This document shows, in pieces, positions 18,129 to 55,999 of a stretch of DNA of 64,000 nt. Every line of letters starts with the position of its first letter. The stretch's first letter is position 1. Origin of the DNA: Paenibacillus swuensis (GTDB lineage: Bacteria > Bacillota > Bacilli > Paenibacillales > DY6); the NCBI RefSeq assembly GCF_001644605.1, contig NZ_CP011388.1, forward strand, positions 4,817,501 through 4,881,500, given 5' to 3'. Made by a program: the position numbers and the translations under genes. Under the pieces are notes generated by a model that saw nothing but the letters and a program-made list of their open reading frames with translations, searched no databases and was not told the DNA's origin.

Positions 18129-18170
18129 CTTTTCATTCCTCCTTATAACAGGCTGACAGTCGTTTGCACA

Positions 18171-20894: not shown

Positions 20895-20945
20895 GAATCG
20901 TTGTGTGAAAGATCTACCCGGAGAAGATATGGCGGAAGAGGAAAT

Positions 20946-20971: not shown

Positions 20972-20997
20972 GTTTGAAAGAGGATATAAAGTTAACT

Positions 20998-22974: not shown

Positions 22975-23033
22975 ATACAAGAATCCTCTCCCTTTTTCAA
23001 TGAATACCTCCATCATACTCGGACATCTTGACC

Positions 23034-27798: not shown

Positions 27799-27928
27799 TT
27801 TATTACCTCCTCTAGATTTAGATGTTATTGGAACCTCCGTGCTTTTACCTTCCCCTCACCTCCTTCGTAGATTAAAAATGCAGAGAAACTGTAAGTCGAC
27901 TGACAACCATTGTTCCGTTGAAGAATGA

Positions 27929-27962
27929 CGCTGGCCGGCAATATACCTTGAACCGGCCAGCG
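27929..27962 (-). terminator. terminator of the long GH74 gene
   Basis: A perfect 10-base GC-rich stem (CGCTGGCCGG with CCGGCCAGCG) around a 14-base loop lies 15 bases after the stop codon. The T run behind it is poor (TCATTCTTC). It separates the two GH74 genes, which therefore need not be co-transcribed. Confidence 0.65.
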
Positions 27963-27976
27963 GATTCTGTAACCCT

Positions 27977-34648: not shown

Positions 34649-34677
34649 GATCGAACCCTCCACCTAAATTTCTTTAA

Positions 34678-36233: not shown

Positions 36234-36293
36234 ACCGCTTACCTCCCTGTAATGTTGTTCTATATCAACCATAAGGCTTGGTTGTAAAGGAAG

Positions 36294-37199: not shown

Positions 37200-37216
37200 A
37201 GCTTTTCCCCCTTTCT

Positions 37217-38134: not shown

Positions 38135-38238
38135 TGTATCTCCCTCCCGCTAGATCATTGTATAGGGAGTTGAACATTATGAGAATGAAGCATTCTACAC
38201 GAATCTCTAAAATTCAACACTCTCTCCCAAAAACAACA

Positions 38239-38282
38239 AAAACGCGCATACGGCAGATTTTCGTCCGCCATACACGCGTTTT
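38239..38282 (-). terminator. terminator of the kinase/regulator pair
   Basis: An 8-base outer stem (AAAACGCG with CGCGTTTT) encloses a further imperfect stem (ATACGGC region). On the minus strand the right arm is followed by TTGTTGTTTTTGG. The hairpin begins at the regulator stop codon and separates the sensor genes from the importer operon. Confidence 0.65.
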
Positions 38283-39900: not shown

Positions 39901-39907
39901 GGTGCAC

Positions 39908-41725
39908 TCACCTTCCGCTAGGTTCAAAATAACGTTTGTCCCGTATTGACGGCAAGGTCAGAAGCACCGTCAACCCAGGTTGATCTTCATTCTCGCAAGC
40001 TTCCACGCCGTAACAGTCGCCATAAAACTGTTTGATTCGTTGATTAACGTTACGTAATCCGAAGCTTTGTTTAGAGGTCTGCTCACTATCCAGAATCTCC
40101 TTCATCATATCCATGTCGGCGCCGGCTCCGTTATCTTTGACCCGAATAACCAGAGAGTCACCCTCTTGGCAGGCACTTACTTCAATGTACCCTTTGTCCC
40201 TTACCTGGCTGATTCCGTGTTCAATCGCATTCTCGACAATCGGCTGCACGATTAGTTTCGGCAGGAAGATCCCTCGCAAGCTTTCATCCAATCGAATTTC
40301 ATAATTCAGTTTATCTTGGAACCGAAGTTGCTGTATCGCAAGATAGCTTTGTATTTGTTTCATCTCGTCTTCCAGAAGAACGATACTGTCTCCGTCATGA
40401 AGGCTTAAGCGAAAAAAGTCGGATAAATAGGTGACCATCATACTAACGTCCTTAGCACCGTGGCGAAGGGCCATCCAATTGACGGAATCGAGGGTATTGT
40501 ACAAAAAGTGAGGGTTGATTTGCGCTTGTAAAGCCTTAAGCTCAGCCTCTTTCTTCTTGATTTCCGACACATACAGCTTCTCAATCAATCCGTTAATTTT
40601 CTGAAGCAGCTGGTTGTACTGATTGAACATGGTCGCAAACTCATCTTTACGCCGATATTCAACAGAGATATTGAAGTTACCTTCCTTCGCATAGGACATG
40701 AAATTGATAAATTTTTTGATGGGCCGGGCGATGTGGCTGGACAATAACCATGCGAGTAAGAAGGCTATGACCATACATAACAGCAGTGTGATCGTCATGG
40801 AATTCTTGAAACTTGTCAGTTCACTATCAAGTTCGCTTACTGGAGAAGTCATAATCATTTTCCATGGCAATTGTCCGATCGACTTATACGAGATTAGCGT
40901 ATTCATTCCGTTGACGTTCGCTTGAAACATCCCTTTATCCGAAGCGTATGGATTCAGCCCCAACACATCAGACATATCCTTGCCCGCTCCCAATCCCCCA
41001 GCTTGAAACACAATGTTGGCATTATCATTGATGATCATATACTGCGTATGCGGTGTAAGCATCAGCTCATTGAGTCTTGCTTTAAATTCGTCGACTTTCA
41101 CCTCTAATGTTAAGAGACCGACGTAATCGATATGTAATTTCTCCAGTGCGTATAATCTCTTCGCCAGCAGGATGGAATCTACAGGATGACTGCCGGTCTT
41201 GTCCATCTCGACAACATTATACGTATGTTGGTGAGGCAATTCCATATACCACGGTTCCGTTTCGATATCGGTAATGCTGCCGACACGACTTGAAGAGTTG
41301 ATCTGACTGTATTCTGGACGGTCGTATAAATATACTTTCGGAACGAAACTGATCTGTGATCCATAGTTGAATTCATAGTTATCCAATAAACGGTCCATCG
41401 CGGTTATTTCCCTGACGAACGAGTTGGAGTCGGTTGGTCTTTTCGATGAGATGATTTGTTGGAACTCAGGACTTAAATATAAATAGGTGGCAATTTCGTG
41501 CGCTACTTCCAATCTCTGAAGTAAGTTAGTGCTAGCCGCGTTAATATTCGTATCAACCGCCCGTACAATGTTACGGTTAATCGAATCTACGCTCCGGTTG
41601 TAAATCGTTATTGTGATTACTGATGTTGGCAGTATAATAAACAATAAGAAATACACCAATAGACGGTACTTGATACTCATCTGAAATAATAGATTCTTCG
41701 GTAGTTCAGACAACAACCACTTCAC
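39908..41725 (-). CDS. Sensor histidine kinase, YesM type
   Basis: A membrane sensor kinase of about 605 residues. One membrane segment lies near residues 20-40, then an extracellular Cache-like sensing domain to about 290, a second segment (LLCMVIAFLLAWLL), a HAMP domain, the His-kinase box INPHFLYNTLDSVNW, and a C-terminal ATPase domain (VENAIEHGISQV, DNGAG). The GTG at 41725 has GAGAGGGGG upstream and is my choice; an ATG at 41746 in the same frame lacks a site. A TATAAT at 41765-41760 would start transcription too close for the ATG. It is divergent from a solute-binding lipoprotein gene only some 50 bases away, which may be a sensing partner. Confidence 0.9.
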   Translation of the reverse strand: MKWLLSELPKNLLFQMSIKYRLLVYFLLFIILPTSVITITIYNRSVDSINRNIVRAVDTNINAASTNLLQRLEVAHEIATYLYLSPEFQQIISSKRPTDSNSFVREITAMDRLLDNYEFNYGSQISFVPKVYLYDRPEYSQINSSSRVGSITDIETEPWYMELPHQHTYNVVEMDKTGSHPVDSILLAKRLYALEKLHIDYVGLLTLEVKVDEFKARLNELMLTPHTQYMIINDNANIVFQAGGLGAGKDMSDVLGLNPYASDKGMFQANVNGMNTLISYKSIGQLPWKMIMTSPVSELDSELTSFKNSMTITLLLCMVIAFLLAWLLSSHIARPIKKFINFMSYAKEGNFNISVEYRRKDEFATMFNQYNQLLQKINGLIEKLYVSEIKKKEAELKALQAQINPHFLYNTLDSVNWMALRHGAKDVSMMVTYLSDFFRLSLHDGDSIVLLEDEMKQIQSYLAIQQLRFQDKLNYEIRLDESLRGIFLPKLIVQPIVENAIEHGISQVRDKGYIEVSACQEGDSLVIRVKDNGAGADMDMMKEILDSEQTSKQSFGLRNVNQRIKQFYGDCYGVEACENEDQPGLTVLLTLPSIRDKRYFEPSGR

Positions 41726-41778
41726 ATCCCAGCCCCCTCTCGACATGCGTCATACTAGTATTATAGGAGAACACTACC

Positions 41779-43119
41779 ATGAGGAAAAGCATGAACAGTA
41801 AGATTGTATGGATCGTGATCGCGATTGCCTCTGTCACAATGCTTGTTGCCTGCTCCGGCCAGATCGTAACGCGATACGAACAGAACGCGGTTACGACTCC
41901 CGATTCAGCTCCAGCCAAAGACGGTGAAATCATCAGCTTCGCATTCCCTACCGAATTAAACACCCAGCTGCAAAAGGAGTTAATCGGTGTATTTAACGAA
42001 AGTGCAGGAGACATGAAAGCTAAGGCAATGCCTATTCCAAGCGATCGATATAACCAAACCTTGAATATGTTAATGACGTCGGGTTCCGGCCCGGACATCT
42101 TCTATCTGCATCCGGAATGGCTTACGTCCTATATCGACAAAAACTGGCTGCACCCCATTGACAGCGATTCGACCTTTCGCAGATATCCCGATTGGGCCGT
42201 GGATTACGGAACATTAGGCGAAACTACTTATACCGTATTCTCACGGGGGTTCATATTGCGATTATTGTATAATCAGGATCTGTTTGAGTGGGCGGGTTTA
42301 CGCTCGGATGAACCTCCAGCAACGAGTACTGAATTCGTCCAGGCAGCAGAGCAGATTAGTGCTAAAGGCCTCGGCTTTAAAAAATACGGATATGCTTTAC
42401 CGGCCGGCGACGAATGGGAAGGATACATACGCAATGTGGAGATGCTAAGCAGCTACAGCGGACATCATATCACGAATCCCTCTTCAGGAACATTCGAATT
42501 CAGCAAGCTTTACCCTTGGTTAGAAGCATGGCTGGAACTCAAAAAAGAGAGGGGACTGTTTCCTGGTGAAGCATCCCTCAAGACAAACACAGCCATCTCT
42601 TTGTTCAAAGAAGGCAGCGTAGCTATGGTGCTGGCATCAAACCGCGAAATCCATTCATTATTTGAGGATACGGATGTTCCATTCAGGTGGTCGATTGCAC
42701 CCCCGATGAAGGGAAGTAACGATGACCAACTGAATGAGTATATCATTCCCGATGGCCTTTACGTCATTAATCGGAAGACGGCAAACCCGACTCTTTCCCT
42801 GAAGCTCTGGGAATATTTACACTCTTATGAGGTCGAACATCGTCTTCTTGAGGAAAGCCATATGATTCCGACCGCTATGGACGTCATCGCCAAAGAGACA
42901 GAACAGGGGCGCCCTGTCTTTGATCTATACAACTTTCCATTAACTGACACGATAAGTCATTACACATATCCGTTTTTCAATCACCGTAAATACGCGAGCG
43001 ACTATATTTCCTCCAAAGGGCGCGCACAGGCATACAGGTCCGTATTGGAAGACAATCAGCCCCTGGACTCCGTTCTTCGAGAGATGGATGAATCCTTGGA
43101 TGAAAAGTTTATTCAATAG
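41779..43119 (+). CDS. Orphan solute-binding lipoprotein, possible co-sensor
   Basis: A 446-residue family-1-like extracellular binding protein. The signal peptide ends in LVACS, with the lipid-carrying Cys at 25. Typical segments include PIPSDRYNQTLNMLM and SGPDIFYLHPEW. AGGAGA precedes the ATG. Unlike the other binding proteins here it is not followed by permeases: it stands alone, divergent from the YesM-type kinase, and ends at a two-way terminator. In some Gram-positive sugar systems a binding protein of this kind hands its ligand to the kinase. Serving the importer at 34755-38134 is the alternative. Confidence 0.87.
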   Translation: MRKSMNSKIVWIVIAIASVTMLVACSGQIVTRYEQNAVTTPDSAPAKDGEIISFAFPTELNTQLQKELIGVFNESAGDMKAKAMPIPSDRYNQTLNMLMTSGSGPDIFYLHPEWLTSYIDKNWLHPIDSDSTFRRYPDWAVDYGTLGETTYTVFSRGFILRLLYNQDLFEWAGLRSDEPPATSTEFVQAAEQISAKGLGFKKYGYALPAGDEWEGYIRNVEMLSSYSGHHITNPSSGTFEFSKLYPWLEAWLELKKERGLFPGEASLKTNTAISLFKEGSVAMVLASNREIHSLFEDTDVPFRWSIAPPMKGSNDDQLNEYIIPDGLYVINRKTANPTLSLKLWEYLHSYEVEHRLLEESHMIPTAMDVIAKETEQGRPVFDLYNFPLTDTISHYTYPFFNHRKYASDYISSKGRAQAYRSVLEDNQPLDSVLREMDESLDEKFIQ

Positions 43120-43214: not shown

Positions 43215-44609
43215 CTAATTAATCGTTATGTTGCCTAAAGTAAGCCATCCTCCCCAGTTCCAGTCCATCTTCTCATTTGCGAATTTGAGAGGTTTGCCGT
43301 TCGTAAGCGGGTTGGTGAACCGAAGCAAATACGTATAGGTACCCTTTGCCAAACCGTGATTGTTCTTCGTATATGATTTGGTATAGTTGGTTCCGCCTGG
43401 CTGGATACTCTTCAGATTCCAATCCATATAACCCCACGGTGAAGCGACATATTGGTTCGAACTGTTAACCAACACCACTTCGACTTGCCAGTTATAAGGA
43501 AACGGTGCCACACCGCGGTTTTGGATATTGACATCCAAACTTAACGTTCCCGACGCCGTTGTATCCGGAATTTTCACTTGGGACACATGGAATTGATAAC
43601 CCATCATCTTATGTGCGCGCATCGCATTATTATACTCTGTGCTGCCAAGTGTACCTACATTATCAAACAACCAGTAATTCGCGAGCCAAGAAATATGCGT
43701 GGTATTCACCGAAGTTGTGAAATCTTGCCCAACGGTGTTAGGCCAGGAATTGAACAGATCCGGCATAATTTCCGGGCGTACCTCGCCCCCGATGGATCGC
43801 GTCTTCCAAATCTCTGTTAGTCCGTTAGAAGTCATCTTCGGCCAGAAGTGCCAACTGGTAGGAGCCAGCGTCTCATATGCGAATGAATCGTCGTGATAAC
43901 CGACACTGTTCTTTAATGTGGTGTCCGAAGTCCCCAATGGATCGCGCAATACTACCTGTGTTTTCGTAAACGCATTCTTGTACGAAGTAAGCAGGCGATT
44001 GCGGTTAGGCTCAGACATTCTCCAATCATCCCCGAGACCATCTGGCTGATGAGGATAAGTATGCCATTCCCCCCAAAAACCATATAATCCTGCCTGAACG
44101 AATCCAAGACGATTGTCCCCGTCATATCTTGCGCCTGCCGCAGCAATGAATCTTTCTAACGCTGAAACCAAGTTATTATCGTTCCAATTGGGTGCTTTAC
44201 TGGTAGTATTCCCTAAATCCGTATAGCTTCGCATTTGAAGCCCGCCGTCAATGAGAAACTGCGGTGTACCGATCGGACGTTGCGGATAATCGAGATACAC
44301 CCGGAAAATCGCATGATTCCCCCTGCCCGAGATCGCATTCAATTCATTATCGATGGCCGCCCAATTGTAGGTGTTGTAGCCTGTCATTACATCTCTTAAT
44401 GATACATAAAACCACTCCATACTGTGGGGAAAGGCACTTGTTCCTTGCCAAGAGAACGGCATAAGTCCTTTATACGGATTGGTCTCGATGCCCGGCGCAT
44501 TCGAATTGTAATTCTGATTAACCCATGCATTCGGGCCCGCGAGCGCACTGGATGTAATAGATAAGAACATGACGATAGCTAACACTGTAATTCCCAACTT
44601 TTTTAACAT
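43215..44609 (-). CDS. Short secreted DUF4832 protein, candidate glycosidase
   Basis: A 464-residue secreted protein of unknown function. A signal peptide covers about 1-26 (ending SALAG). The rest is one DUF4874/DUF4832 unit: NPYKGLMPFSWQG, HSMEWFYVSLRDVM, IFRVYLDYPQRPIGTP, GLYGFWGEWHTYP with E181, and a C-terminal beta domain (PLKFANEKMDWNWGGW). The barrel-like first part with GEWH after a strand resembles TIM-barrel glycosidases, so E181 may be an acid/base; this is inference. It is a paralogue of the core of the 51899-55999 protein. AAGGAG precedes the ATG at 44609. It follows two permease genes after 112 bases. Confidence 0.82.
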   Translation of the reverse strand: MLKKLGITVLAIVMFLSITSSALAGPNAWVNQNYNSNAPGIETNPYKGLMPFSWQGTSAFPHSMEWFYVSLRDVMTGYNTYNWAAIDNELNAISGRGNHAIFRVYLDYPQRPIGTPQFLIDGGLQMRSYTDLGNTTSKAPNWNDNNLVSALERFIAAAGARYDGDNRLGFVQAGLYGFWGEWHTYPHQPDGLGDDWRMSEPNRNRLLTSYKNAFTKTQVVLRDPLGTSDTTLKNSVGYHDDSFAYETLAPTSWHFWPKMTSNGLTEIWKTRSIGGEVRPEIMPDLFNSWPNTVGQDFTTSVNTTHISWLANYWLFDNVGTLGSTEYNNAMRAHKMMGYQFHVSQVKIPDTTASGTLSLDVNIQNRGVAPFPYNWQVEVVLVNSSNQYVASPWGYMDWNLKSIQPGGTNYTKSYTKNNHGLAKGTYTYLLRFTNPLTNGKPLKFANEKMDWNWGGWLTLGNITIN

Positions 44610-44721
44610 AATCCAACTCCTTAAGTAGTTTTTTTTGAACAAAATTCTGTCTGAGGTTAAATAAAAAGATTTCTAACCCTGAAGAACCGGTAACACCACC
44701 CCCCTTCTTCTACCGTACTGC

Positions 44722-45597
44722 TTATTCCTTTACAGCGCCCAACACCATTCCCTTGACAAAGAAACGCTGCAGGAACGGGTATAGCACAATAACCGGCAGA
44801 GCCGCAATAAAAATTTGGGCCGCTTTAAAGGATCGTTGCGTAATTTTGTCCATATCGCTTGCAGAGTTGATTAAATTCACAAGGTTCGTCTCCACAATGA
44901 TCGTTTGTAAATAGGTGGCCAATGGATAGTTATCCTGCCGCATATAAATAAGTCCGTCAAACCAAGAGTTCCAATGACCGACCAAAGTGAATAATGACAG
45001 TGTTACAAGTGCGGGCAGTGAAATCGGCAGAAATATTCTAAATAAAGTAACCATATGATTCGCCCCGTCCATCAACGCCGCTTCTTCCAGTTCTTTGGGA
45101 ACGTTACGGAAGAAATTCATCAGCAGAATCATATTCCACACGTTAACCGCGCCAGGCAGTATTAATGCTCCCATATGATTAATTAAATGCAGTTTGGACA
45201 TGAGGATATAGGACGGAATCATCCCGCCGCTAAACAGCATAGTGAATACAAAATACCATGCTATAGCATTACGCCCTTTCAGAACACCGCTGTCCTTCGA
45301 CAGCGGATAAGCCGCCAATATTACCAACAACATACTTACCGCAGTACCTAACACCACACGCATTACCGAGTTCCAAAGCGAACTCGAAAAATCTCGGTTT
45401 GAGATCACCTTGTGATAGGCGTCCATAGTGAAATCCACAGGCCAGAAATTGACCAAGTTGGCGCTTACGGCCGCTTTATCACTCAAAGATACCGCCAGAA
45501 TATGAAATAATGGAAGAATACACATTAATGAAATGATTCCTAACAGGATGTGATTTCCAACAGAAAACCATTTGTAACCTGATGTTTTATAATACAT
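44722..45597 (-). CDS. ABC sugar permease, LplC/YtcP type (second importer)
   Basis: A 291-residue inner-membrane permease with six segments. The EAA loop is EEAALMDGANHMVTLF, and the end is FLQRFFVKGMVLGAVKE as in LplC relatives. GAGGT lies some distance before the ATG. It pairs with the LplB-type permease 20 bases upstream. With the binding protein at 50094-51794 and the DUF4832 proteins it forms a second import system, whose ligand is unknown. Confidence 0.9.
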   Translation of the reverse strand: MYYKTSGYKWFSVGNHILLGIISLMCILPLFHILAVSLSDKAAVSANLVNFWPVDFTMDAYHKVISNRDFSSSLWNSVMRVVLGTAVSMLLVILAAYPLSKDSGVLKGRNAIAWYFVFTMLFSGGMIPSYILMSKLHLINHMGALILPGAVNVWNMILLMNFFRNVPKELEEAALMDGANHMVTLFRIFLPISLPALVTLSLFTLVGHWNSWFDGLIYMRQDNYPLATYLQTIIVETNLVNLINSASDMDKITQRSFKAAQIFIAALPVIVLYPFLQRFFVKGMVLGAVKE

Positions 45598-45617
45598 AGA
45601 TTTGGTAACCTCTTTTC

Positions 45618-46553
45618 TTAAAAAACTCTGTAATTGGCATATCTGTAAGCAAGTCTATAAGCTGCTATGATAAACAGGCAGGACACAATCGATTTCAGCA
45701 AACCAAAAGCCGTTCCAAAACTGTATTGTCCGGAAACCAATCCCATCCGATACACATAGGTATCAATGATGTCGCCCTTCTCGTAAACCAAGGGACTGTA
45801 AAGTGTAAGAATTTGTTCAAATCCCGCGTTGAGTACGTTACCCAAGGAAAGTGTTCCCAGAACAATCATGATGGGCATGAGCATCGGTATGGTGATATAT
45901 ACGGTCTGTTTCCAGCGGTTGGCGCCGTCAGCTTCAGCAGCTTCATACAATGAAGGATTAATTCCTGCCAGCGCGGCTAAATATACAATCGTGGAGAAAC
46001 CGAATTCTTTCCACACATCACTGGCGATCATCGTAAATCTAAACCATCCTCCCTCTCCTAAGAAGAAAACAGGTTCCACACCCAGCATACTCATGCCCCG
46101 GTTAATCAACCCTCCGGATGGAGAGAGTACATCCATCAGAATCCCGCCGATGATGACCCAATTCATAAAATGAGGTAAGTAAACCAAGGTTTGCACCGTT
46201 CTCTTATATCCGACATGGCGAACTTCGTTAAGCAATAGAGCAAAAATGAAGGGTACCACCATATTCGCCGCAATTTTCCCTACTGCGATGACTAACGTAT
46301 TAAACGTCACTTGAATCGTGTCCGGCAGGGTGAATATGAGTTTGAAATGTTCCAAACCTACCCATTCCGAACGGGTAAACCCCGTCCAGGGTTGATAATC
46401 CTGAAAAGCCATAACGAGCCCTGCCATCGGCAGGTAGGAGAAGATGAAGGCAAAGAGGATGGGCGGCAGGAGCATCGCATATAGGATGGTATGTTTACGG
46501 AAATAAGATTTCCGCCGGCTTACGGTCGGCCGTGCAGTAGCGGTTTGAGGCAC
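45618..46553 (-). CDS. ABC sugar permease, LplB type (second importer)
   Basis: A 311-residue inner-membrane permease. The EAA loop is YEAAEADGANRWKQT; the first outer loop has LPMAGLVMAFQDYQPW. The N-terminus is basic (SRRKSYFRKH). The start is uncertain: the frame has GTG at 46562 and at 46553. Only the second has a site at normal distance (GGAG, 8 bases), so I use it. It is the first gene of the permease pair and divergent from the second kinase. The gap of about 145 bases between them is AT-rich with several TATAAT-like words but no clear -35 box. Confidence 0.88.
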   Translation of the reverse strand: MPQTATARPTVSRRKSYFRKHTILYAMLLPPILFAFIFSYLPMAGLVMAFQDYQPWTGFTRSEWVGLEHFKLIFTLPDTIQVTFNTLVIAVGKIAANMVVPFIFALLLNEVRHVGYKRTVQTLVYLPHFMNWVIIGGILMDVLSPSGGLINRGMSMLGVEPVFFLGEGGWFRFTMIASDVWKEFGFSTIVYLAALAGINPSLYEAAEADGANRWKQTVYITIPMLMPIMIVLGTLSLGNVLNAGFEQILTLYSPLVYEKGDIIDTYVYRMGLVSGQYSFGTAFGLLKSIVSCLFIIAAYRLAYRYANYRVF

Positions 46554-46698
46554 TTGAATCACTCCAGACTGTTGTTTTTTGTCGATGATCGTGATGAATA
46601 TGTTGTATAATTAGTATAAAATCAGGAACTTGATTCCGATACGGTATAATTTCTTGATCCATCACCTTTTGTTCACTTCTTTAGTCAGGGGGCACCAT

Positions 46699-48411
46699 AT
46701 GTTTCGACTTAATACATTCTCGCGGACACTGATTCTGTTGCTCTTTATATTTATGACCTTTGCCATGATGTTCTGGTACTCCAATGCCATCAGCATGAAA
46801 GTGACCCGTCAACAAATCCAGGAGCTCAATCTGAACAGGCTCAGTAATTTCCTTAGAGAGATCGATGAAGAAGCTAATCGATTAGTTTCCATGGCCATAA
46901 CCATTGCGCGGGATCCCTATATCCAATCCTTGCAAGTGCCTATGGACCTGACAATATACAACGAAATCACTTCCGTGAATGCAGTGGAACAGAAATTAAC
47001 GCTCCAGCCTATTTCCAGCAAGTGGAAAAGCCAGTTATCGGTCTTCTATCCGCAGACGAATCGATTTGTCAGTAATGATCCGACACTCCGTAGTTTCCCT
47101 TTCGAATTAACCAATCCCGCATGGAGCTATCAGGAACAAACCTGGAACGGGATTCCCTCTACCCCGGTGTTTGCCTATTCACTGATAGAACCTTATTTTG
47201 CCGTCCATGACGAAAGTCAGATCCAGCAAGTTACCCAGATTGCGATTCCCAGCAAAACCCTCTCTTCCATGTTGCGTAAATTGAACAGCAGCCATGACGG
47301 AGGATCATTCTTCTTCTTGCCGGAAACGAATAAAGTGATTGCCGATGTTGTAGATGAGCGAGTAGAATCATTCCAAACCTATTTAAGTCGTACGAATCCG
47401 CAACAGTTACATAACACCACATTGAAGGTTCAAGGCGAAACTTATCTGGTTAACGCTTTATACTCTTCGAAGCTCAAGCTGTTTCTTATTGACTATGTGC
47501 CAATCAAGAGGATTTTGGCTCCGATTACAGACAGTCGGAACACATCATACCTGATTGCGGCGATCCTGCTTGGTGTCAGTATCGCGGCCGCATTATTGTT
47601 ATACCGGTACATCCAGATCCCGGTTAGAGATTTGCTGCTGGGTGCGAAGAGAATGAGGCAGGGAGATTATTCTGTCAGGCTCAGCTCTCCTTCCGGGAAT
47701 GAATTCGGATACGTCCTGGAAAGCTTCAATCTGATGGCAGAAGAAGTACAGCAATTAGTAGAGAAGGTTCATACGGAACAGATTTATTCAAGAGAAGCCA
47801 AGTTAAAGCAATTACAATCCCAAATTAACCCGCACTTTTTATACAATTGTCTATACTACATAACGAATATGGCTTCTATGGGCAATAACAAAGCGGTAAC
47901 GGCCATGTCCCTTAATCTGGGGGATTATTACCGGTATACCACTAGGAATGAAAATCAAAGCGTAAGGCTCACCGATGAGCTGAAGCTGGTTACGAACTAC
48001 CTGAAGATTCAGCAGCTGCGAACAGAGCGGTTGATCTTTTCTGTGGAAGTTCCGGATGTGATGCAGGAGCAGTTGATTCCCCGCCTGTTACTTCAGCCTG
48101 TGGTGGAGAATGCCGTGATTCATGGCATAGAACCCGTGCCGGGCGAGGGAACAATTCAAATCCGGGGATATCGGGAGGGCGGCAGCTATTTCTTAACCGT
48201 CATGGATGATGGGGCCGGCTTATCCGAAGAGGAAGCAGCGTTGCTGAACAAGCAAATCAGAAACACGGACATTTCCGATGCAGGATGCGGTTTATCGAAT
48301 GTACACCAACGGTTGGTATTGAAATATGGCGAGGAAGCAGGTATAACCGTCACATCATTAACGGACGGAGGTTGTTTATTCATACTTCAATGGCCCGCGG
48401 TGGAACTTTAA
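46699..48411 (+). CDS. Sensor histidine kinase, YesM type (second system)
   Basis: A 570-residue membrane kinase. It has a membrane segment at about 12-30, an extracellular sensing domain to about 295, a second segment (LIAAILLGVSIAAALLL), a HAMP domain (RMRQGDYSVRLSSPSGNEFG), the box INPHFLYNCLYYITN and the ATPase motifs VENAVIHGIEPV and DDGAGLSEE. The ATG at 46699 follows AGGGGG; the frame is open further upstream but unsupported. The regulator gene follows after 31 bases. It should sense the sugar handled by the DUF4832 system. Confidence 0.92.
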   Translation: MFRLNTFSRTLILLLFIFMTFAMMFWYSNAISMKVTRQQIQELNLNRLSNFLREIDEEANRLVSMAITIARDPYIQSLQVPMDLTIYNEITSVNAVEQKLTLQPISSKWKSQLSVFYPQTNRFVSNDPTLRSFPFELTNPAWSYQEQTWNGIPSTPVFAYSLIEPYFAVHDESQIQQVTQIAIPSKTLSSMLRKLNSSHDGGSFFFLPETNKVIADVVDERVESFQTYLSRTNPQQLHNTTLKVQGETYLVNALYSSKLKLFLIDYVPIKRILAPITDSRNTSYLIAAILLGVSIAAALLLYRYIQIPVRDLLLGAKRMRQGDYSVRLSSPSGNEFGYVLESFNLMAEEVQQLVEKVHTEQIYSREAKLKQLQSQINPHFLYNCLYYITNMASMGNNKAVTAMSLNLGDYYRYTTRNENQSVRLTDELKLVTNYLKIQQLRTERLIFSVEVPDVMQEQLIPRLLLQPVVENAVIHGIEPVPGEGTIQIRGYREGGSYFLTVMDDGAGLSEEEAALLNKQIRNTDISDAGCGLSNVHQRLVLKYGEEAGITVTSLTDGGCLFILQWPAVEL

Positions 48412-48442
48412 TAACTTCTTTACAGACAAAGGATGATTACAG

Positions 48443-50050
48443 ATGTACAAAATTATGATTGTAGATGATGAGCCGTCCGTTCTGGATGCCATTACGTCCC
48501 AAATCCCTTGGGAATCGCTTCAAATCACTTCCGTCATGACCGCTTCGTCCGGTAAAGAAGCGCTTGAATTGTTTCAAGAGGAGAATATTGATATCGTCAT
48601 CAGCGATATTCAGATGCCCGTTATGGACGGGTTGGCATTGGTGGAACAGATTAAGGAAAAGAAACCTCATACGCGCTGCATTCTGCTGACAGGATACGCA
48701 GACTTCCATTATGCCCAAACCGCTCTCAAGCATCAGGTTTCCGATTATTTACTTAAACCCATTGCAGTTGAAACCATTATAGAAGCGGTCCAAAAAATCA
48801 CCGATGAACTTGCTTCCGAATGGTCCCATGTAAGTTCCTATCAACACGCTCTATATACTTTAAAAGAAAACCTTCCTTTCCTGCGCAGCCGCCTGCTGGC
48901 CGACTTGCTGAGCGGACGTCGTATGGAACACTCCGTATTGGAAGAGAAGCTAACTATGCTGGAAATTTCCATTCATTGCAAAGACGTGTTCTGGATGCTG
49001 TTGATTCGTCTGGAGGAGGATTTTCTTCATTATGACCGTAATAGCAGGGAATTGCTTGAGTACGCTATATTGAATATCGCGGGAGAAGTGCTTGGGCATG
49101 AAGTTCATTTATGGTACGGCAAGGATGATCATGATTATCTGGTTCTCCTTATAGGCGATGCCCAAGCATCCGAAAGGTCCTCCTTTCGCAAAGAGCTTGA
49201 ACGTAAAGCGGAGGAGTTGTTGCATCAGGTTCAACTTTATCTCAAAGGCGCCTTAACCATGATCATCAGTGAAGCCGGCGAATTCCCCAACCAAGTTTCG
49301 CAGTTTTATGATTCCTTACTCTATGAAATGCGTCGTACTTTGCCGCATCAGCAAGGTTGGCTAAAAACGGTGAATTCTTTGGATGTCAGTCAATCTGCCA
49401 GATCCTTGAAGCGACTTTATGAGCCTCCGGTGTTAATGCATCTGCTGGAAGCCGGGAGATGGGAGGAAGCGGAGAAAACCATCTTGCGCATCATGGAAGA
49501 ACTAACCACCGTATCGGAGCATTCGGCTGAGACTGTTAATGAAGTCTATCATGCGTTTCTCGCAGCGTTTCACTACAATGCTCATAAAAGCGGAGTAAGT
49601 CTAGTAGAAATTGTAGGAATAGAACCGTTGGAATTACGTCACGGTGACCGGCGGTCCATCCCGATCATGACCCAGTGGGCAATCGGGATCGTAGACAAGC
49701 TCCGAAAGAATGTGGATCAGGATCATCGTGAGTCAACAACCGCATTAATTGGACAGATCAGGGAATTTCTGGAACAGAGGTTGTCGGATGATGTCTCTCT
49801 GCAAGCCATTGCTGAACATCTTTATATGAATCCCAAATATATTTCAAGACTGTACAAGCTGGAAACCGGAGAGAATATCAGCGACTATTTGTTCAGGCTG
49901 CGCATGGAACGGTCTGCTTATTATTTAAAAAATACCAATATGAAAATACAGCAAATATGCGAAAAGCTAGGATATCAGAGTACCTCATACTATATTCGTT
50001 TATTCAAAAAGCATTACAGTGTCACACCTCAAGAATTTAGGAACTCATAA
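48443..50050 (+). CDS. Response regulator, YesN type (second system)
   Basis: A 535-residue regulator with an N-terminal receiver (DDEPSVLD pocket, phosphorylated Asp in VISDIQMPVMDG), a long middle linker and a C-terminal AraC DNA-binding domain (LQAIAEHLYMNPKYISRLYK and QICEKLGYQSTSYYIRLFKK). AAAGGA precedes the ATG. It is in one unit with the kinase and ends at a strong two-way terminator. Likely targets are the divergent permeases, the binding protein and the two DUF4832 genes. Confidence 0.93.
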   Translation: MYKIMIVDDEPSVLDAITSQIPWESLQITSVMTASSGKEALELFQEENIDIVISDIQMPVMDGLALVEQIKEKKPHTRCILLTGYADFHYAQTALKHQVSDYLLKPIAVETIIEAVQKITDELASEWSHVSSYQHALYTLKENLPFLRSRLLADLLSGRRMEHSVLEEKLTMLEISIHCKDVFWMLLIRLEEDFLHYDRNSRELLEYAILNIAGEVLGHEVHLWYGKDDHDYLVLLIGDAQASERSSFRKELERKAEELLHQVQLYLKGALTMIISEAGEFPNQVSQFYDSLLYEMRRTLPHQQGWLKTVNSLDVSQSARSLKRLYEPPVLMHLLEAGRWEEAEKTILRIMEELTTVSEHSAETVNEVYHAFLAAFHYNAHKSGVSLVEIVGIEPLELRHGDRRSIPIMTQWAIGIVDKLRKNVDQDHRESTTALIGQIREFLEQRLSDDVSLQAIAEHLYMNPKYISRLYKLETGENISDYLFRLRMERSAYYLKNTNMKIQQICEKLGYQSTSYYIRLFKKHYSVTPQEFRNS

Positions 50051-50054
50051 AATG

Positions 50055-50086
50055 ACAAGGCCTGAGGATAGCTCCTCAGGCCTTGT
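50055..50086. terminator. two-way terminator between regulator and binding-protein genes
   Basis: A perfect 14-base stem (ACAAGGCCTGAGGA with TCCTCAGGCCTTGT) around a four-base loop lies between two convergent genes, which end 5 and 8 bases away. Confidence 0.92.
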
Positions 50087-50093
50087 TAATTCT

Positions 50094-51794
50094 TTACTTA
50101 GATAGGTCGGAATACCACTGGTTCATCTCTTCGACATATTTGCTGTACCCTGCTTTATTGTAATCCTCCAGAAATTGGTCGTAGAATTCTACCGGGGACT
50201 CTCCGAAGATAATCTTGCTCTGCGCTTCTCTTCTCATCTTCTCCAGCAAGGCGCCTTTGGATACCATCGTACGGGTTGACGGTGCACCTTCGGCCAAGTT
50301 ATTTACTTCTTGGTTCGAATCCAGGTACTGAAGAATGATTTTGGCGGCCTCGAGTGTAACTTCGTTTTCTCCGCCCATTTGCTTAATCTCCATAGCGGAT
50401 TCCGGCTTTCCGCCGCTTGTAAATTTACGCATCATCTCAACCCACTGATCCGGAATAAACCATTCACTGTTCACACTGTAACGAACAACATCTGTATAAT
50501 CAGGCACTTTTAATTTATCATTCGTCGGAACCCCGTCAACTACAGCCCAATCGTAGTTTTCCGCTAGTCCAAATTCATATTTGGAGCCTTTCTCCGGATA
50601 AATATAATTCTGGATAAACCAGTTGATATACGACATAACCGCTTCAGGATTCTTCATATCCTTGTTGATCATTACGTATTTACCCAAAGTCAAACTCTGG
50701 CCTGATACGGCAAGTTCGCCTGATGGGCCTGTCGGGAGCGGGTATGGCTTGAATTGCGCGGCAGGCACATTCTTAACCAAGTCCGGAAACGGCCATAGCG
50801 GCAGCCAGTAGGATCCTACCGTAATGCCGGCTTTCCCGCTGTTCCATAACTCTGCAGCTTTCATTTCATCATAAACGCCAACATCTTTAGGCATATATCC
50901 TTTCGATAACCATTCATGCAGCTTGGCCAAGCCCTTCTTCATGTTGGGTGTCGCGTAAGGCTGATAAAGTTTCCCTGCTTCATCTTTAATCCAGAAGCCT
51001 TCGCTTGGCGCAATGCCGTAAGGTGCGAATGCAATCTCGGGAGATCCCATCCATCGGGTATAATAATTGTCCTTAAGCGCCATGGATATTCCGTATGAAT
51101 CAGCTTTACCGTTCCCGTCAGGATCTTGCTTCGTAAATGCTTCCAGGACAGCATCTAATTCATCCATCGTCTTCGGTGCTTTCAGCTTCAGCTTAGTCAG
51201 CCAATCTTCCCGGATCCACATCACACTGTCCCGGCCGGTCCAGTTAAACAACGGAATTGCGTATTTTTTTCCGTCTACGGTCACGGCATCCCATGCTTGA
51301 GGATATTTCGCAAATGCCGCTTTAAATCGCTCATCAGCATGCTTCTCAAAGAGCTCATCCACTGTCATGAATTTGCCTGAGTCAATGAGCTGCTTCATTA
51401 ATACTTTATCCGGAACTACCATCATATCCGGTAATTCTTCATTGGCCGCCAGGGATAGACGAATCTTCTCTTTCATCTCGTCATCTTTGGAAGCCGTCCA
51501 TAAATATTTCATTTCAATGCCCAGATCTTCTTTGAGTGTTTTATCGAGCACATTATTCTCCAGGTTCTCGCCATCGCGAAACATGATGTCCTGATTCATG
51601 ACCTTGACTGTGGACATCGTAATAGGCGGATCAAATTTACCGGAATCTCCGCTCGTATTAACTTGATTTTCCGCTTTGTTGTTGGAAGAAGCCGGCTCCT
51701 TGTTCTGATTTCCTTTCCCCGTTTGGTTAGAACATGCTGTTCCTAGTAATACAGTAATCATCGTAACCATGACCAAACCCTTTTTTAATCTCAT
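50094..51794 (-). CDS. ABC importer solute-binding lipoprotein (second importer)
   Basis: A 566-residue LplA/YtcQ-like binding protein. The lipobox LLGTAC places the lipid-carrying Cys at 21, followed by an Asn/Lys/Ser-rich tether. Typical parts are MWIREDWLTKLKLKAPKT and KQDPDGNGKADSYGIS, a segment common in these proteins. GGGAGG lies 8 bases before the ATG. It is separated from its presumed permeases by the kinase and regulator genes and is transcribed on its own, 105 bases downstream of the large DUF4832 gene. The ligand is unknown. Confidence 0.9.
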   Translation of the reverse strand: MRLKKGLVMVTMITVLLGTACSNQTGKGNQNKEPASSNNKAENQVNTSGDSGKFDPPITMSTVKVMNQDIMFRDGENLENNVLDKTLKEDLGIEMKYLWTASKDDEMKEKIRLSLAANEELPDMMVVPDKVLMKQLIDSGKFMTVDELFEKHADERFKAAFAKYPQAWDAVTVDGKKYAIPLFNWTGRDSVMWIREDWLTKLKLKAPKTMDELDAVLEAFTKQDPDGNGKADSYGISMALKDNYYTRWMGSPEIAFAPYGIAPSEGFWIKDEAGKLYQPYATPNMKKGLAKLHEWLSKGYMPKDVGVYDEMKAAELWNSGKAGITVGSYWLPLWPFPDLVKNVPAAQFKPYPLPTGPSGELAVSGQSLTLGKYVMINKDMKNPEAVMSYINWFIQNYIYPEKGSKYEFGLAENYDWAVVDGVPTNDKLKVPDYTDVVRYSVNSEWFIPDQWVEMMRKFTSGGKPESAMEIKQMGGENEVTLEAAKIILQYLDSNQEVNNLAEGAPSTRTMVSKGALLEKMRREAQSKIIFGESPVEFYDQFLEDYNKAGYSKYVEEMNQWYSDLSK

Positions 51795-51898
51795 GCGTTA
51801 ACCCTCCCAATGAAATAAATCCTCTGTACAATTCCATTCTAATAGAACGTCCACAACGCTTATATGCTAATATTTCTTGTTTTATAGTCTCCTGTATA

Positions 51899-54800
51899 TC
51901 ATTCATTCATGGATAAAAGTTGTGTCAGGATGACAGCGGCATGAGTTCTTGTGACGGAAGTCAACGGCATGAGTTCTCCCTTCCCGGATCCTCTCAATAT
52001 GCCTGAGTCAACAAGCCCGCGCACACTTTCCTTGGCATAATCGCTAATGAGATGCCCATCGGAAAATTCTTCAACTTTAGTTCCTTTCATCGATTTTCCG
52101 TAGTTTGCCGCTTGCATCGCCCTGAACATGAATACCGCCATATCTTGTCTGGATAAAGGAGTGCCGATGCCAAATTTATTGTTACCCGCGCCTTGAGTAA
52201 TGCCTAATTTGGCTGCAGAGGCAATATGAGGATAAGCAACGGCTGCCTGGTCCAGATCCTGATAGGAAACGGATGCTTTATTATCTACGAGATGCAGCGC
52301 CTCCATTAACATCACCAGGAAATCCTCTCGCGTAACGGATTTCTCCGGTTGGAACAAGCTTTCCTGCTGCAGATCCATCAGCTCCCGGGCTGTAATAAAC
52401 TCGACAGCATTCTTGGCCCATGGCACATTCTTCAAGTCCGCTAACGCCTTCATATTATAAGCTGTGACGAACGTACCGAAATGAGTCGTTGTTAAAATCA
52501 TGGATTCCCGAGAGGCATCGTATCTGCCATGATGTATAATTCTCATCCCGTTCGTGTTACTCACATTGTAGATAACAAGTCCATTGGCCCTCTCAATGGG
52601 GAGAAGCTCATACGGAATAACCATTGTTATGGACTTGCCGTGATGTTCAATTAAATTGATCGCTGTATTATTCACAAAACCTTGAATACTGACAATGGGA
52701 TGTCCCTCGGTCCAATGCTTTATTTTCTCTTGGATGCCGGCCAGAACGGTAGTATCTATATCCAAACGAAGGATATCGGATGCCTTCAGTTCCTGTTCGT
52801 CAAGCAAAGTTGCGGATAGATATACATCCGCTGGTTTCGCAGACAGACACAGTTGTTGAATTCCAGCTTTCTTCAGAAGGGTGAATGTATCGGATGGAAT
52901 TGTAAAGCCGACTTTCTTAACAACATCGCTATTGATCACTTTCAGTTGTACATGCTTTTCTTTCCGAAGAGCTGCGTTGGCAATCGCGATCTCCAATACA
53001 GGCTTAGGAACAGTAAGTTGCATCGTTGTTCCGTCAAGCCTGCCCGTCAGTTTCACCGTTCCTCCCTCCGCAACCGGCTGGTTATCGGAGATCGTAGTTG
53101 ACGGGTCTGCTGGAGTAGTCACGTCACTAGGCGGTGTTACCTCACCTGATGGTGGAACCGTTCCCGGGGGAGTAACTTCTCCCGGTGGTGTAACCTCTCC
53201 TGGGGGTGTAACTTCTCCCGGTGGTGTAACCTCTCCTGGGGGTGTAACTTCTCCCGGTGGTGTAACCTCAACAGGAGTCCGGTTTGAGAATCGAAGCCAA
53301 TCTAAGTCGCATACCCCGTTCTGGAGTTCGTTCAAGAAAATAACATAAATCTTATGTTTACCCTGGAGGGGCGTCATCGCAGCAGTCACTTTTCCCCATC
53401 CGGTCGGAGAAGCCCACGAGCCTGTATTCGGAATAGCCAGGCTTGCCACGACAGGACCTTCCGGCGAACCGCTCCGCAACTCTATGCCGCCGCCGTCCAA
53501 GGCCGTTGCAACGCGGGCGGAGACCTCATTATAACCACTACCGAAATCAATTTCGTTATATACAATATAATCCTCATGCTTAGTCCAACCCGCTAATCCT
53601 TGCCCTCCGGCTCCGCTTGCGGCTTGATTATGAAAAGCTCTGACGTTGCCCTCCGATGTATCGAAAGACTCCGCTTCAATTCGAAGTGTACCCGCAGGAT
53701 CCGGTTCTGGTTCTGTAATCGGACCCGGTCCGCCAGTATCTTCCGTAAGCGTTTTAACCGAAATTTTTTCACTTTCTTCTGAAATGTAACCCGCCGCGTC
53801 CCATGCCTTAACACTAAATGTATAATCCGTATTAGGCAACAAATGTTCTACAGTATACTGCGTGTTCAATAAAGCTTCAGCATTCACCGGGCTTTCATTT
53901 ACATATACGTTATATCCAACGGTAGCAATATCATCCTCTGACGGAGACCATGACAATGTTACCGAATCGGCTTTCACGTCTGTAACAGTTAGATTGTCGG
54001 GCTTCGCAGGAGCTGCGGTGTCCAGTGCAGCCTGTTCCGACACCCTGAATTCGCCAAGCGTTAACCAACCATCATGGTCTGAATCTTGCTTAGCATTCGC
54101 GAATTTCAACGGATGACCGCCTGTCATGGGATTACGCACCTGCATTAACAGCTTGTATTGACCCTCTGCCAGACCATGCTGAGGAAGAACATATGCCCTG
54201 CCGTCGTGATCGCCCGGCAATACTCGGTTCAAGTCAAGATCCGCCGAACCCAGCTCGCGAATCACACCATCTTGAGATACCGCAGCAAAAGATACTGGCC
54301 AGTCATAAGCAAATGGAGCAATTCCCTTGTTTTCCAATTTAATTAAAGCCTGCAGCGCAGCATCGGGATGAATCGTACGTAAATTCACTTTCGATACGAA
54401 CAGCTCATACCCAATCATGCGGTGTGCTTTCAGCGCATTTTCCCGCTGAGCAGCCGACAACGTGTTTTCTTTCGCTTTATTAAAGAACACATAGTTGGCA
54501 ATCCAGGATGCATGGGTTGTCATAATACTTTCTTCTAATGTCGCATTTTGCGCGAAATCTTCCAAGGACTTTGAAAGTCCCGGTTGCGACCATGCATCGA
54601 ATATCCGATCCATAATGATGGGATTCAGCTCTCCGCCCATAGGATGCGACTTCCAGTTATTCGTCAGACCGTTATCAACCATTCTGGGCCAGAAATACCA
54701 TCCTTCACCCAGCGTGTAGTGAGCGAACGAGTCATCAAAATACCCGAATTCATGTTTCAAATCCTCATCTTCTGTCCCTGATGGATCCCGTGTAATGACA

Positions 54801-55999
54801 ACGGATTGTTGAAACGCATCCTTGAATGCCGTTAATACTCGGTCTTTATTCTCTTGTGACATTCTCCAATCATCTGTCGGGTGTCCGCCAGGTTCGTGAG
54901 GATAAGTATGCCATTCTCCCCAGAAACCATAAAGTCCCGTTTGTACAAGCGCTATACGCGGGTCACCGTCGTACGCAGCGCCATAAGCCGATATGAACTG
55001 CTCCAACGCGTAGATTAAATCGGGATCGTTCCAATCGGGCGCTTGGCTTTGTCCGGGCTGATTATCAAGCGTGGTGTAGTCCCTCATTTCCAAACCGCCG
55101 TCAATCAGATATTGCGGTACCCCAGTCGGCCGCTTCGGAAAATCCACATAGAACCGCACAATTGATTGGTTTCCTCGATTACTGACTTCGTTGAGGTTCT
55201 CTTCGAGCTTCGTCCAATCAAAGCTGTTATTTCCAAACATGACGTCACTTAAGGGTATATAAAACCATTCCATGCTGTGGGGGAAGGGAGAATCGCCTTG
55301 CCAGGAGAAGGGGACTAACCCTTTAATCGGGTTTAGCTCCAGTCCTTCAACATCCCCCTTGTATACTTGCTCTACCCATTGTCCGTTCCCGGAGGGTTCG
55401 CCTGAGGAAAGCTCCTGTTTGATTAAAACAACATCATCCCAGTATCCATAGGTGGTCACGTTGTTCGCGGCCCATTTATAATAGGATACTTCCAGCATCT
55501 GTGTGTGTTCAGGCACGGTGAAGTTATTCACAAATCGCTTATAAATACTTGTCTTATCGATTAAGATTTCTTCGTTCAGAAGTACACTGGAATCCGCGCC
55601 AAGCGCCTTAATATAAACCTTTGCGTCAGCCCAGCCGCTTGAGGCCTCATCAAGTTTGGACCAGAAAGAAAGCGTTAAATTCTCACCTGCGGCAAAGCCT
55701 GCAGTAACAAGTTGAGTTAACGAACCCTGCACAGACCCTCCTAATTCCGCTGCTGCCTCTCCGGTATGTACATGTGTGATATCCTGAGTCTGCTTGGCAC
55801 CCACAACCGTTGTTGAATCTGACCAAAGGCTCCATTCATTCATACCTGACTCGAATGAACCATTCTGAATTAAGTTTACTGCAGAAGGTTCTTCGGCGGC
55901 GACAACACCTGTGCCCGGAGCAACACCTGCAAAAACCATTGCGTGTGTAAGCGTTATCAACAACATCCAACCTATAAATCGTTTCAACCAACTTCCCAT
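51899..55999 (-). CDS. Large SLH-anchored DUF4832 protein with carbohydrate-binding domains
   Basis: A 1366-residue surface protein. Order: signal peptide (1-37); CBM4/9/22-like jelly roll (43-190, NLIQNGSFESGMNEW); DUF4874/DUF4832 unit (215-655) with GLYGFWGEWHTYP and E362; fibronectin type III (663-755); CBM6/35-like domain (770-907, RIEAESFDTSEGN); a Pro-Gly-Glu-Val-Thr repeat linker (910-957); a pre-SLH beta module (975-1175); three SLH domains (1187-1366). The core matches the short protein at 43215-44609 block by block. The ATG at 55999 follows AGGAGG; the frame continues upstream without support. The carbohydrate-binding domains suggest that DUF4832 acts on a polysaccharide at the cell surface; its activity is not known. 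Confidence 0.87.
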   Translation of the reverse strand: MGSWLKRFIGWMLLITLTHAMVFAGVAPGTGVVAAEEPSAVNLIQNGSFESGMNEWSLWSDSTTVVGAKQTQDITHVHTGEAAAELGGSVQGSLTQLVTAGFAAGENLTLSFWSKLDEASSGWADAKVYIKALGADSSVLLNEEILIDKTSIYKRFVNNFTVPEHTQMLEVSYYKWAANNVTTYGYWDDVVLIKQELSSGEPSGNGQWVEQVYKGDVEGLELNPIKGLVPFSWQGDSPFPHSMEWFYIPLSDVMFGNNSFDWTKLEENLNEVSNRGNQSIVRFYVDFPKRPTGVPQYLIDGGLEMRDYTTLDNQPGQSQAPDWNDPDLIYALEQFISAYGAAYDGDPRIALVQTGLYGFWGEWHTYPHEPGGHPTDDWRMSQENKDRVLTAFKDAFQQSVVITRDPSGTEDEDLKHEFGYFDDSFAHYTLGEGWYFWPRMVDNGLTNNWKSHPMGGELNPIIMDRIFDAWSQPGLSKSLEDFAQNATLEESIMTTHASWIANYVFFNKAKENTLSAAQRENALKAHRMIGYELFVSKVNLRTIHPDAALQALIKLENKGIAPFAYDWPVSFAAVSQDGVIRELGSADLDLNRVLPGDHDGRAYVLPQHGLAEGQYKLLMQVRNPMTGGHPLKFANAKQDSDHDGWLTLGEFRVSEQAALDTAAPAKPDNLTVTDVKADSVTLSWSPSEDDIATVGYNVYVNESPVNAEALLNTQYTVEHLLPNTDYTFSVKAWDAAGYISEESEKISVKTLTEDTGGPGPITEPEPDPAGTLRIEAESFDTSEGNVRAFHNQAASGAGGQGLAGWTKHEDYIVYNEIDFGSGYNEVSARVATALDGGGIELRSGSPEGPVVASLAIPNTGSWASPTGWGKVTAAMTPLQGKHKIYVIFLNELQNGVCDLDWLRFSNRTPVEVTPPGEVTPPGEVTPPGEVTPPGEVTPPGEVTPPGTVPPSGEVTPPSDVTTPADPSTTISDNQPVAEGGTVKLTGRLDGTTMQLTVPKPVLEIAIANAALRKEKHVQLKVINSDVVKKVGFTIPSDTFTLLKKAGIQQLCLSAKPADVYLSATLLDEQELKASDILRLDIDTTVLAGIQEKIKHWTEGHPIVSIQGFVNNTAINLIEHHGKSITMVIPYELLPIERANGLVIYNVSNTNGMRIIHHGRYDASRESMILTTTHFGTFVTAYNMKALADLKNVPWAKNAVEFITARELMDLQQESLFQPEKSVTREDFLVMLMEALHLVDNKASVSYQDLDQAAVAYPHIASAAKLGITQGAGNNKFGIGTPLSRQDMAVFMFRAMQAANYGKSMKGTKVEEFSDGHLISDYAKESVRGLVDSGILRGSGKGELMPLTSVTRTHAAVILTQLLSMNE
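53161..53270. repeat. 18-base repeats in a 36-base pattern coding a Pro-Gly-Glu-Val-Thr linker
   Basis: About six 18-base units alternate between two sequence versions (…CTCTCCTGGGGGT… and …CTTCTCCCGGTGGT… on the plus strand), so the real unit of duplication is 36 bases. They encode repeats of six residues in the linker between the CBM6-like domain and the pre-SLH module. The near identity points to recent expansion. Confidence 0.9.

Follow-up and report, generated by a model that had tools for sequence, protein, structure and literature searches.

A stretch of 64,000 nucleotides from the single-contig, 5.01-Mb genome of Paenibacillus swuensis (contig NZ_CP011388.1, positions 4,817,501 to 4,881,500; hereafter the window) harbors at 43215-55999 seven genes with intergenic gaps of 20-104 bases. 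They encode, in this order, a short DUF4832 protein and two permeases (minus strand), a YesM-like kinase and a YesN-like regulator (plus strand), and a binding lipoprotein and a long DUF4832 protein (minus strand). Gene calls and Pfam bear out this content and order, as well as the enclosing position of the two DUF4832 proteins, one free and one SLH-anchored, all of which had been described in a first-pass annotation of the sequence. The locus combines a secreted candidate enzyme with a permease pair, a binding lipoprotein and a sensor, and it is a real, conserved system in which DUF4832 enzymes, import and sensing probably make up a Gram-positive polysaccharide-utilization locus; the computed evidence consists of gene content, a predicted fold, invariant residues and a conserved neighborhood. 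The permease pair, the AlgQ1/AlgQ2-like lipoprotein and the kinase with its AraC-type regulator are shared with known loci of this kind, which differ in having recognized hydrolases or lyases in the place of the DUF4832 proteins.

Pfam DUF4832 (PF16116, cut-off 29.2 bits) matches residues 281-456 of the short protein with 51.3 bits and residues 524-668 of the long one with 31.8 bits, the latter also containing fn3, CBM6 and two SLH stretches. DUF4874 (PF16173) remains below its cut-off of 30.1 in both (15.3 in the short, 20.0 in the long protein), neither of them matches any glycoside hydrolase (GH) model of Pfam, and NCBIfam gave no match for the short protein or for the binding lipoprotein. 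Among solved structures, a PDB sequence search placed AlgQ1 and AlgQ2, both binding proteins, nearest to the lipoprotein. At E 0.001, a search of the genome returned the short and the long DUF4832 protein and none beyond these. Both contain HSMEWFY and GLYGFWGEWHTYP, as noted earlier, and the earlier numbering of the GEWH glutamate (E181 and E362) is correct with the start codons then chosen, Met12 of the short open reading frame (ORF; 44609) and Met35 of the long one (55999), which are supported by an AGGAG-type ribosome site at each. The coordinates of these features are collected in Table 1.

Table 1. Features of the DUF4832 locus and of the adjoining importer and sensor set (window coordinates).
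Feature	Position	Strand	Basis
Short DUF4832 protein, secreted: signal peptide, (beta/alpha)8 barrel, C-terminal seven-strand beta-sandwich	43215..44609	-	Pfam, predicted model; signal peptide by eye
Predicted catalytic barrel of short protein, mature residues 1-312	43602..44537	-	AlphaFold2 model, fold matches
Invariant Glu of GEWH, short protein: mature E157 = 192 of 475-residue ORF = earlier E181	44067..44069	-	After barrel strand 4; 159/159 domains
Invariant Asp, short protein: mature D217, barrel strand 6	43887..43889	-	159/159 domains
Invariant Glu, short protein: mature E252 = ORF 287, barrel strand 7	43782..43784	-	159/159 domains; model
C-terminal seven-strand beta-sandwich, accessory, short protein; Wzt carbohydrate-binding and CARDB/fn3-type likeness	43218..43601	-	Model; best Z 9.3
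Sugar ABC permease, second subunit	44722..45597	-	Pfam BPD_transp_1
Sugar ABC permease, first subunit	45618..46562	-	Pfam BPD_transp_1
YesM-like sensor histidine kinase	46630..48411	+	Pfam HAMP, His_kinase, HATPase_c
YesN-like response regulator with AraC helix-turn-helix	48443..50050	+	Pfam Response_reg, HTH_18
Extracellular solute-binding lipoprotein, AlgQ1/AlgQ2-related	50094..51794	-	Pfam SBP_bac_8; PDB sequence search
Long DUF4832 protein, SLH-anchored, with fn3 and CBM6	51899..55999	-	Pfam
DUF4832 barrel and sandwich of long protein, ORF residues 238-692	54026..55390	-	Homology to short protein, 49% identity
Long protein Glu 396 of ORF (earlier E362), counterpart of short E157	54914..54916	-	Family alignment
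Long protein Glu 491 of ORF, counterpart of short E252	54629..54631	-	Family alignment
CBM6 of long protein	53285..53677	-	Pfam, 77.3 bits
SLH cell-wall anchoring region, long protein	51926..52438	-	Pfam SLH; extent from sub-cut-off NCBIfam match
Second set, binding protein	34755-36272		Cluster membership
Second set, permeases	36294-38134		Cluster membership
Second set, YesN	38281-39927		Cluster membership
Second set, YesM	39908-41746		Pfam
Second set, binding protein	41779-43119		Pfam

The structure prediction called for in the first-pass annotation was run on the mature short protein with AlphaFold2, using 60 aligned sequences (58 relatives in addition to the two domains of the window). The model (pLDDT 93.3, pTM 0.91) comprises a (beta/alpha)8, or TIM, barrel followed by a beta-sandwich, with barrel strands at mature residues 24-26, 40-46, 75-81, 144-148, 194-197, 213-219, 249-253 and 284-286, and its best fold matches are glycosidases. 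GH14 beta-amylases ranked first in VIA-align (Z 17.4, root-mean-square deviation (rmsd) 3.6, 259 residues aligned; best of 1000 chains), followed by GH35 and GH10-type enzymes at Z 14-15, so that several barrels score at least 14, while Foldseek against the PDB placed a beta-galactosidase first (E 2.6e-8, though with a template-modeling score of about 0.3 and an rmsd of about 15 for this long alignment), with GH35 as the label of several leading matches. Modeled alone, the C-terminal domain (pLDDT 85.9) forms a seven-strand sandwich, for which the modest best scores were those of TapA in Foldseek (E 1.9e-4) and of Wzt carbohydrate-binding domains in VIA-align (Z 9.3), with CARDB and fn3-like glycosidase domains near. 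In the model, Pfam DUF4832 marks mostly the end of the barrel and the accessory sandwich, and the predicted catalytic part is the whole barrel, most of which lies ahead of the Pfam domain. The earlier suggestion that DUF4832 is itself the enzyme is thus sustained as regards a glycosidase-like barrel and has to be amended as regards the part of the protein concerned. A PDB search with the single sequence gave nothing significant (best E 1.9). With the family profile, it returned 17 sequences, all of them anthrax protective antigen chains matching part of the C-terminal beta region (best whole-sequence E 0.0023, best single stretch only 0.12), which were judged spurious.

Conservation was assessed over 159 DUF4832-type domains chosen by profile score and coverage alone (above 80 bits and at least 330 model columns; 199 matches minus 40 duplicates, with L171 excluded by score and L146 as a duplicate). 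R79, G150, G153, W155, E157, H159, G213, D217, E252, Y314, N340 and G342 are identical in 159/159 domains. In the model of the short protein, E157 is found just after strand 4 and E252 within strand 7, strands 4 and 7 being where clan GH-A enzymes and beta-amylases usually carry their two catalytic acids. E157 is proposed to be the acid/base or general acid, and E252 the nucleophile or base. Only the former glutamate had been singled out before; the latter (ORF residue 287 in the short and 491 in the long protein) had been missed. Since a barrel fold is combined with a pair of glutamates, one at strand 4 and one at strand 7, that are invariant throughout the set, both DUF4832 proteins are very likely to be glycoside hydrolases.

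Clan GH-A type enzymes (GH35, GH42, GH10) resemble the DUF4832 proteins in their barrel with invariant glutamates at strands 4 and 7, as predicted here, and two relatives fall on either side of the Pfam GH42 cut-off of 21 bits (L168 above it at 23.2, L166 below at 19.2); they differ in that the window proteins themselves have no Pfam GH match. GH14 beta-amylases, the best fold match, share a GE motif shortly after strand 4 (GGPSGELRYP in the GH14 proteins compared, whose glutamate is catalytic, and GFWGEWHTYP here), and they differ in the C-terminal domain and in the locus, sequence kinship being undetectable. Descent from GH14 was considered and rejected. The profile-profile probability was 2.9% (E 0.015) for 11 GH14 sequences, aligned over a stretch that ends before the strand-4 glutamate, and 0.2% (E 0.32) for a GH31 control; Pfam showed no GH14 match for the window's DUF4832 proteins. 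Only the likeness in fold is retained.

The hydrolase reading is not wholly new, and the description of DUF4832 as a family entirely of unknown function no longer holds. It is partly anticipated in print by SIR_1591 of Streptococcus intermedius, presented in 2025 as a Pel-operon glycoside hydrolase composed of a TIM barrel and a seven-strand DUF4832 domain. According to the available text of that report, purified SIR_1591 disrupted Pel-dependent aggregates comparably to the PelA hydrolase and acts on a polymer rich in N-acetylgalactosamine (GalNAc), the linkage in Pel being alpha-1,4 (PMC12345266). DUF4832 genes contiguous with pel clusters have also been mentioned for streptococci and clostridia (excerpt of PMC7112168). 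The earlier idea, in which a new family of glycoside hydrolases comes with an importer and a sensor, is upheld in its hydrolase-like fold and conserved neighborhood, and loses its novelty where the activity of a member is concerned; what is added here is the second invariant glutamate, the split of the family into two branches and the alpha-galactosidase-like partners. SIR_1591, compared by its description with the predicted models of the window proteins, is likewise secreted and has a TIM barrel followed by a seven-strand domain, and seven full-length streptococcal-type homologues among the 159 domains keep the invariant residues. Proteins of its type are encoded beside PelG and have about 470 residues, whereas those of the window belong to the other branch, are accompanied by an importer and a sensor and no Pel genes, and often carry CBM or SLH modules. 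No activity report for the window's branch was found among open-licence PMC papers.

DUF4832 proteins were seen in Firmicutes, Actinomycetes, Chloroflexota and other phyla in a protein search. As the genus- and family-level samples contained only the window's genome, the order and class were sampled: 72 of 296 genomes of the order match the short protein, and PF16116 is matched in 24 of 398 genomes of the class. A FastTree tree of the 159 domains, divided at its midpoint in spite of known long branches, places 106 domains on the window side and 53 on the other (L018, L155 and L061 carry domains of both), with only about 23-27% identity between window-side and Pel-linked proteins. The two window copies pair with each other in this tree (support 91, below the tool's mark of 95; the long copy lies on a long branch) and may stem from duplication within one sub-branch. 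Paired barrels are frequent, at least two window-side domains being present in 36/62 window-side loci, window included, and in some members of the order both barrels reside in one SLH-anchored protein (L148, 2141 residues).

Neighborhoods were counted in loci of at least 12 kb, which are not a random sample and retain near-copies (e.g., L012 and L145). The window-side loci came from the multi-phylum protein search and the order search, and the 23 other-side loci from the multi-phylum protein search (8), the order search (5), PF16116 in the class (3) and PF16116 in a streptococcal-type genus (7), the last being sought because the 2025 paper pointed there, with the genus assignment inferred. The longer stretches were hand-picked (16 places from the 72 matching order genomes and 11 from the class and genus PF16116 searches), and Fisher tests, which treat loci as independent, are descriptive only. 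The survey of neighborhoods that had been suggested at the outset shows a sugar permease within 6 kb in 43/61 window-side loci versus 2/23 on the other side, the chance of such a permease near a random 2-kb gene of the window's genome being 0.19 (68 permease matches). A YesM-like kinase occurs within 8 kb in 19/61 and 2/23 loci, respectively. Taken with the predicted TIM barrel and the position of the GEWH glutamate after strand 4, the permease counts give, as far as they go, none of the outcomes that the first-pass annotation had named as refuting its reading. PelG shows the opposite distribution, with 11/23 other-side loci (4/16 once the seven streptococcal-type loci are removed) versus 1/61 on the window side, namely L018, which also has a Pel-branch DUF4832 protein. 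In the streptococcal-type genus, PF16116 is matched in 9 of 147 genomes, with PelG nearby in 7/7 places fetched. PelG matches are no guarantee of a DUF4832 protein, because the family profile matched 0/11 PelG-bearing genomes searched (of 16) in the phylum sample. Separately, in L158 (1-16000) the gene of a Pel-side DUF4832 protein (8966-10363) has a PelG match on one side and a set of permease, binding-protein and YesMN genes on the other, the permeases of this set being 45-51% identical to those of the window, and L059, L061, L062 and L064-L067 (Calditrichota, KSB1 and similar metagenome-assembled genomes, MAGs) encode non-window-side DUF4832 proteins of about 450 residues with no PelG or permease matches nearby.

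Two kinds of enzyme genes recur on the window side. A GH31-like gene, counted within 10 kb, was found in 18/61 window-side loci versus 1/23 on the other side (L155, with domains of both), in hosts that include Paenibacillaceae, Lachnospiraceae, an Anaerolineae MAG, a Bacteroidetes MAG and Serinibacter. A melibiase-like gene (labeled 'GH36-like' by us), counted anywhere in the locus, is present in 19/61 versus 0/23, all in actinomycete families. No locus has both, and 37/61 window-side loci have one of the two. The best PDB relatives of the GH31 protein of L012 are a 'GH31 alpha-galactosidase' (6.5e-138) and then MYORG (7.1e-57), itself an alpha-galactosidase according to the available text of PMC9491548. 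Alpha-galactosidases are also the best PDB relatives of the melibiase-like protein of L028 (1.2e-109), for which the sole NCBIfam match, weak and sub-cut-off, is to beta-L-arabinopyranosidase. The GH31 partners would act on imported oligosaccharides, since no signal peptide was seen by eye in two translated proteins. In the proteins scanned, the actinomycete set (L028, L022) also includes a ROK-family regulator, and the GH31 set (L147, L053) includes a GFO/IDH/MocA oxidoreductase.

Other genes near some loci deserve mention. In L012, GH123 and alpha-L-fucosidase genes (18413-21422) lie downstream of the DUF4832 gene, past a further permease set; they possibly hint at a galactosamine-containing glycan or belong to an unrelated locus. 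GNAT_C-domain proteins are encoded near DUF4832 and importer genes in L148 (890-1717, also with NAT_N) and L051 (8338-9702), and if they acetylate galactosamine in the cell, a galactosamine-containing substrate would be favored.

We infer that the two DUF4832 enzymes would cut a polymer outside the cell, the short one secreted free and the long one tethered to the wall by its SLH domains and bound to the polymer through CBM6. The lipoprotein and the two permeases would take up the resulting oligosaccharides, with an ATPase encoded outside the locus and presumably shared, and YesM/YesN would detect them and switch the locus on. A cytoplasmic alpha-galactosidase, encoded elsewhere in the genome, would complete degradation inside the cell, so that an extracellular barrel with endo action, an importer and this enzyme would together be enough to degrade an alpha-galactose polymer. 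The polymer is tentatively suggested to be of an alpha-linked galactose or galactosamine type (an alpha-galactan, or a polymer resembling fungal galactosaminogalactan). Galactosaminogalactan is a polymer of alpha-linked galactose and galactosamine, and a polymer like it would be the simplest link, because the partners resemble alpha-galactosidases and a member of the other branch acts on a GalNAc-rich polymer. A bolder proposal, which we hold to be doubtful, is that the window-side branch represents a new subfamily (with SIR_1591, a new family) of endo-hydrolases whose substrates would be alpha-linked galactose-type polymers, fungal galactosaminogalactan for example, often with paired barrels, a dedicated importer and sensor, and an alpha-galactosidase inside the cell that was drawn from either of two families in independent events, in soil bacteria and actinomycetes that would feed on fungal or bacterial biofilm matrix.

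DUF4832, which Pfam still files as a domain of unknown function, becomes on this evidence a set of testable hydrolases with two candidate catalytic residues, in which a Pel-linked branch is set apart from an uptake-linked one for which a concrete substrate guess is given. If that guess is right, it would reveal the way in which common bacteria feed on matrix polymers rich in alpha-galactose, and it would provide enzymes akin to those already tried against Pel biofilms.

Several points weigh against a polysaccharide-utilization locus directed at such a polymer. Activity in the window's branch is a prediction, and that on Pel cannot be transferred to it at 23-27% sequence identity. In the available text on SIR_1591 itself, the activity is aggregate disruption without product analysis, and the deletion mutant had no aggregation phenotype (PMC12345266). 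Whole-model superposition in Foldseek was poor (template-modeling score about 0.2-0.4, rmsd 14-21). The loci are not independent, one actinomycete operon supplying many of them; 18/61 window-side loci lack a permease within 6 kb, and the rumen Lachnospiraceae loci L048 and L054, with no importer gene among ten neighbors scanned, are counter-examples to a universal importer link. Neither alpha-galactosidase-like gene occurs in 24/61 window-side loci. The locus of the window has no alpha-galactosidase, and the GH31 homologue of its genome (49% identical) lies elsewhere, at 386 kb. Finally, other glycosidases are encoded near some loci, GH123 and alpha-L-fucosidase in L012, and GH32 and arabinofuranosidase in L007.

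These last enzymes could speak for hydrolases of another polymer, either a plant hemicellulose such as xyloglucan or a different galactose-bearing glycan, working in partnership with the adjoining GH74-like enzymes. CBM6 and CBM35 modules are common on plant-polymer enzymes, and the stretch 23926-34663 encodes a GH74-like protein and another one with the same domain types, beyond which transport and YesM/YesN genes extend to 43119. A DUF4874-DUF4832-dockerin protein is also listed, in the text available, from a rumen lignocellulose consortium (PMC7480376). We nevertheless consider this rather unlikely, as the GH74-like set comes with its own genes for permeases, binding proteins and a sensor and would not need those of the DUF4832 set, and as the window's GH74-like protein (27977-34663) falls in none of the 45 listed neighbor clusters, two of the larger of which are the GH31-like and melibiase-like ones.

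It appears improbable that the enzymes cut Pel or another alpha-1,4-linked GalNAc/galactosamine biofilm polymer of neighboring bacteria, in the manner of SIR_1591, and that the bacterium eats the pieces. The two-domain layout and the invariant residues are common to both branches, SIR_1591 is active on aggregates of a GalNAc-rich polymer, and L012 has a gene of the GH123 type, a family of beta-N-acetylgalactosaminidases. However, the recurrent partner enzymes resemble alpha-galactosidases, the branches diverged deeply, and PelG is confined on the window side to the single locus that also has a Pel-branch protein. The window's genome has no PelG match, and Pel as a polymer of the bacterium's own was rejected on this ground.

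Finally, it is highly improbable that the proteins are carbohydrate-binding or sensing devices with a dead barrel that feed the kinase: a TIM-barrel fold is by itself no proof of activity, and a maize protein of beta-amylase fold has, to judge from the title of PDB entry 7upv, a noncatalytic role, but both acidic residues and several of their neighbors are invariant in the whole set and one relative is active.

Beside the polysaccharide-utilization locus proposed here, the window contains further genes upstream. The remark in the first-pass annotation that no recognized glycosidase or lyase is present is valid inside 43215-55999 and does not extend to this region, in which GH74-like, BNR/Sortilin-CBM9 and GHL6/GH42M proteins are encoded. 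The protein at 27977-34663 is SLH-anchored and GH74 xyloglucanase-like, to judge from the PDB sequence matches obtained with its N-terminal 800 residues; that at 23926-27798 has the same BNR/Sortilin and CBM9 domain types (Pfam only), and a 672-residue putative glycosidase with GHL6 and GH42M matches is encoded at 20998-23016. The second importer and sensor set, at 34755-43119, adjoins the GH74-like genes. Still further upstream, a run of genes at 12355-20803 encodes an aldehyde dehydrogenase, an amidohydrolase, a DHO_dh protein with an Fe-S domain, an Fe-S/pyridine-nucleotide oxidoreductase, an M20 peptidase-type amidase and a class III aminotransferase, and resembles a pathway of reductive pyrimidine breakdown.

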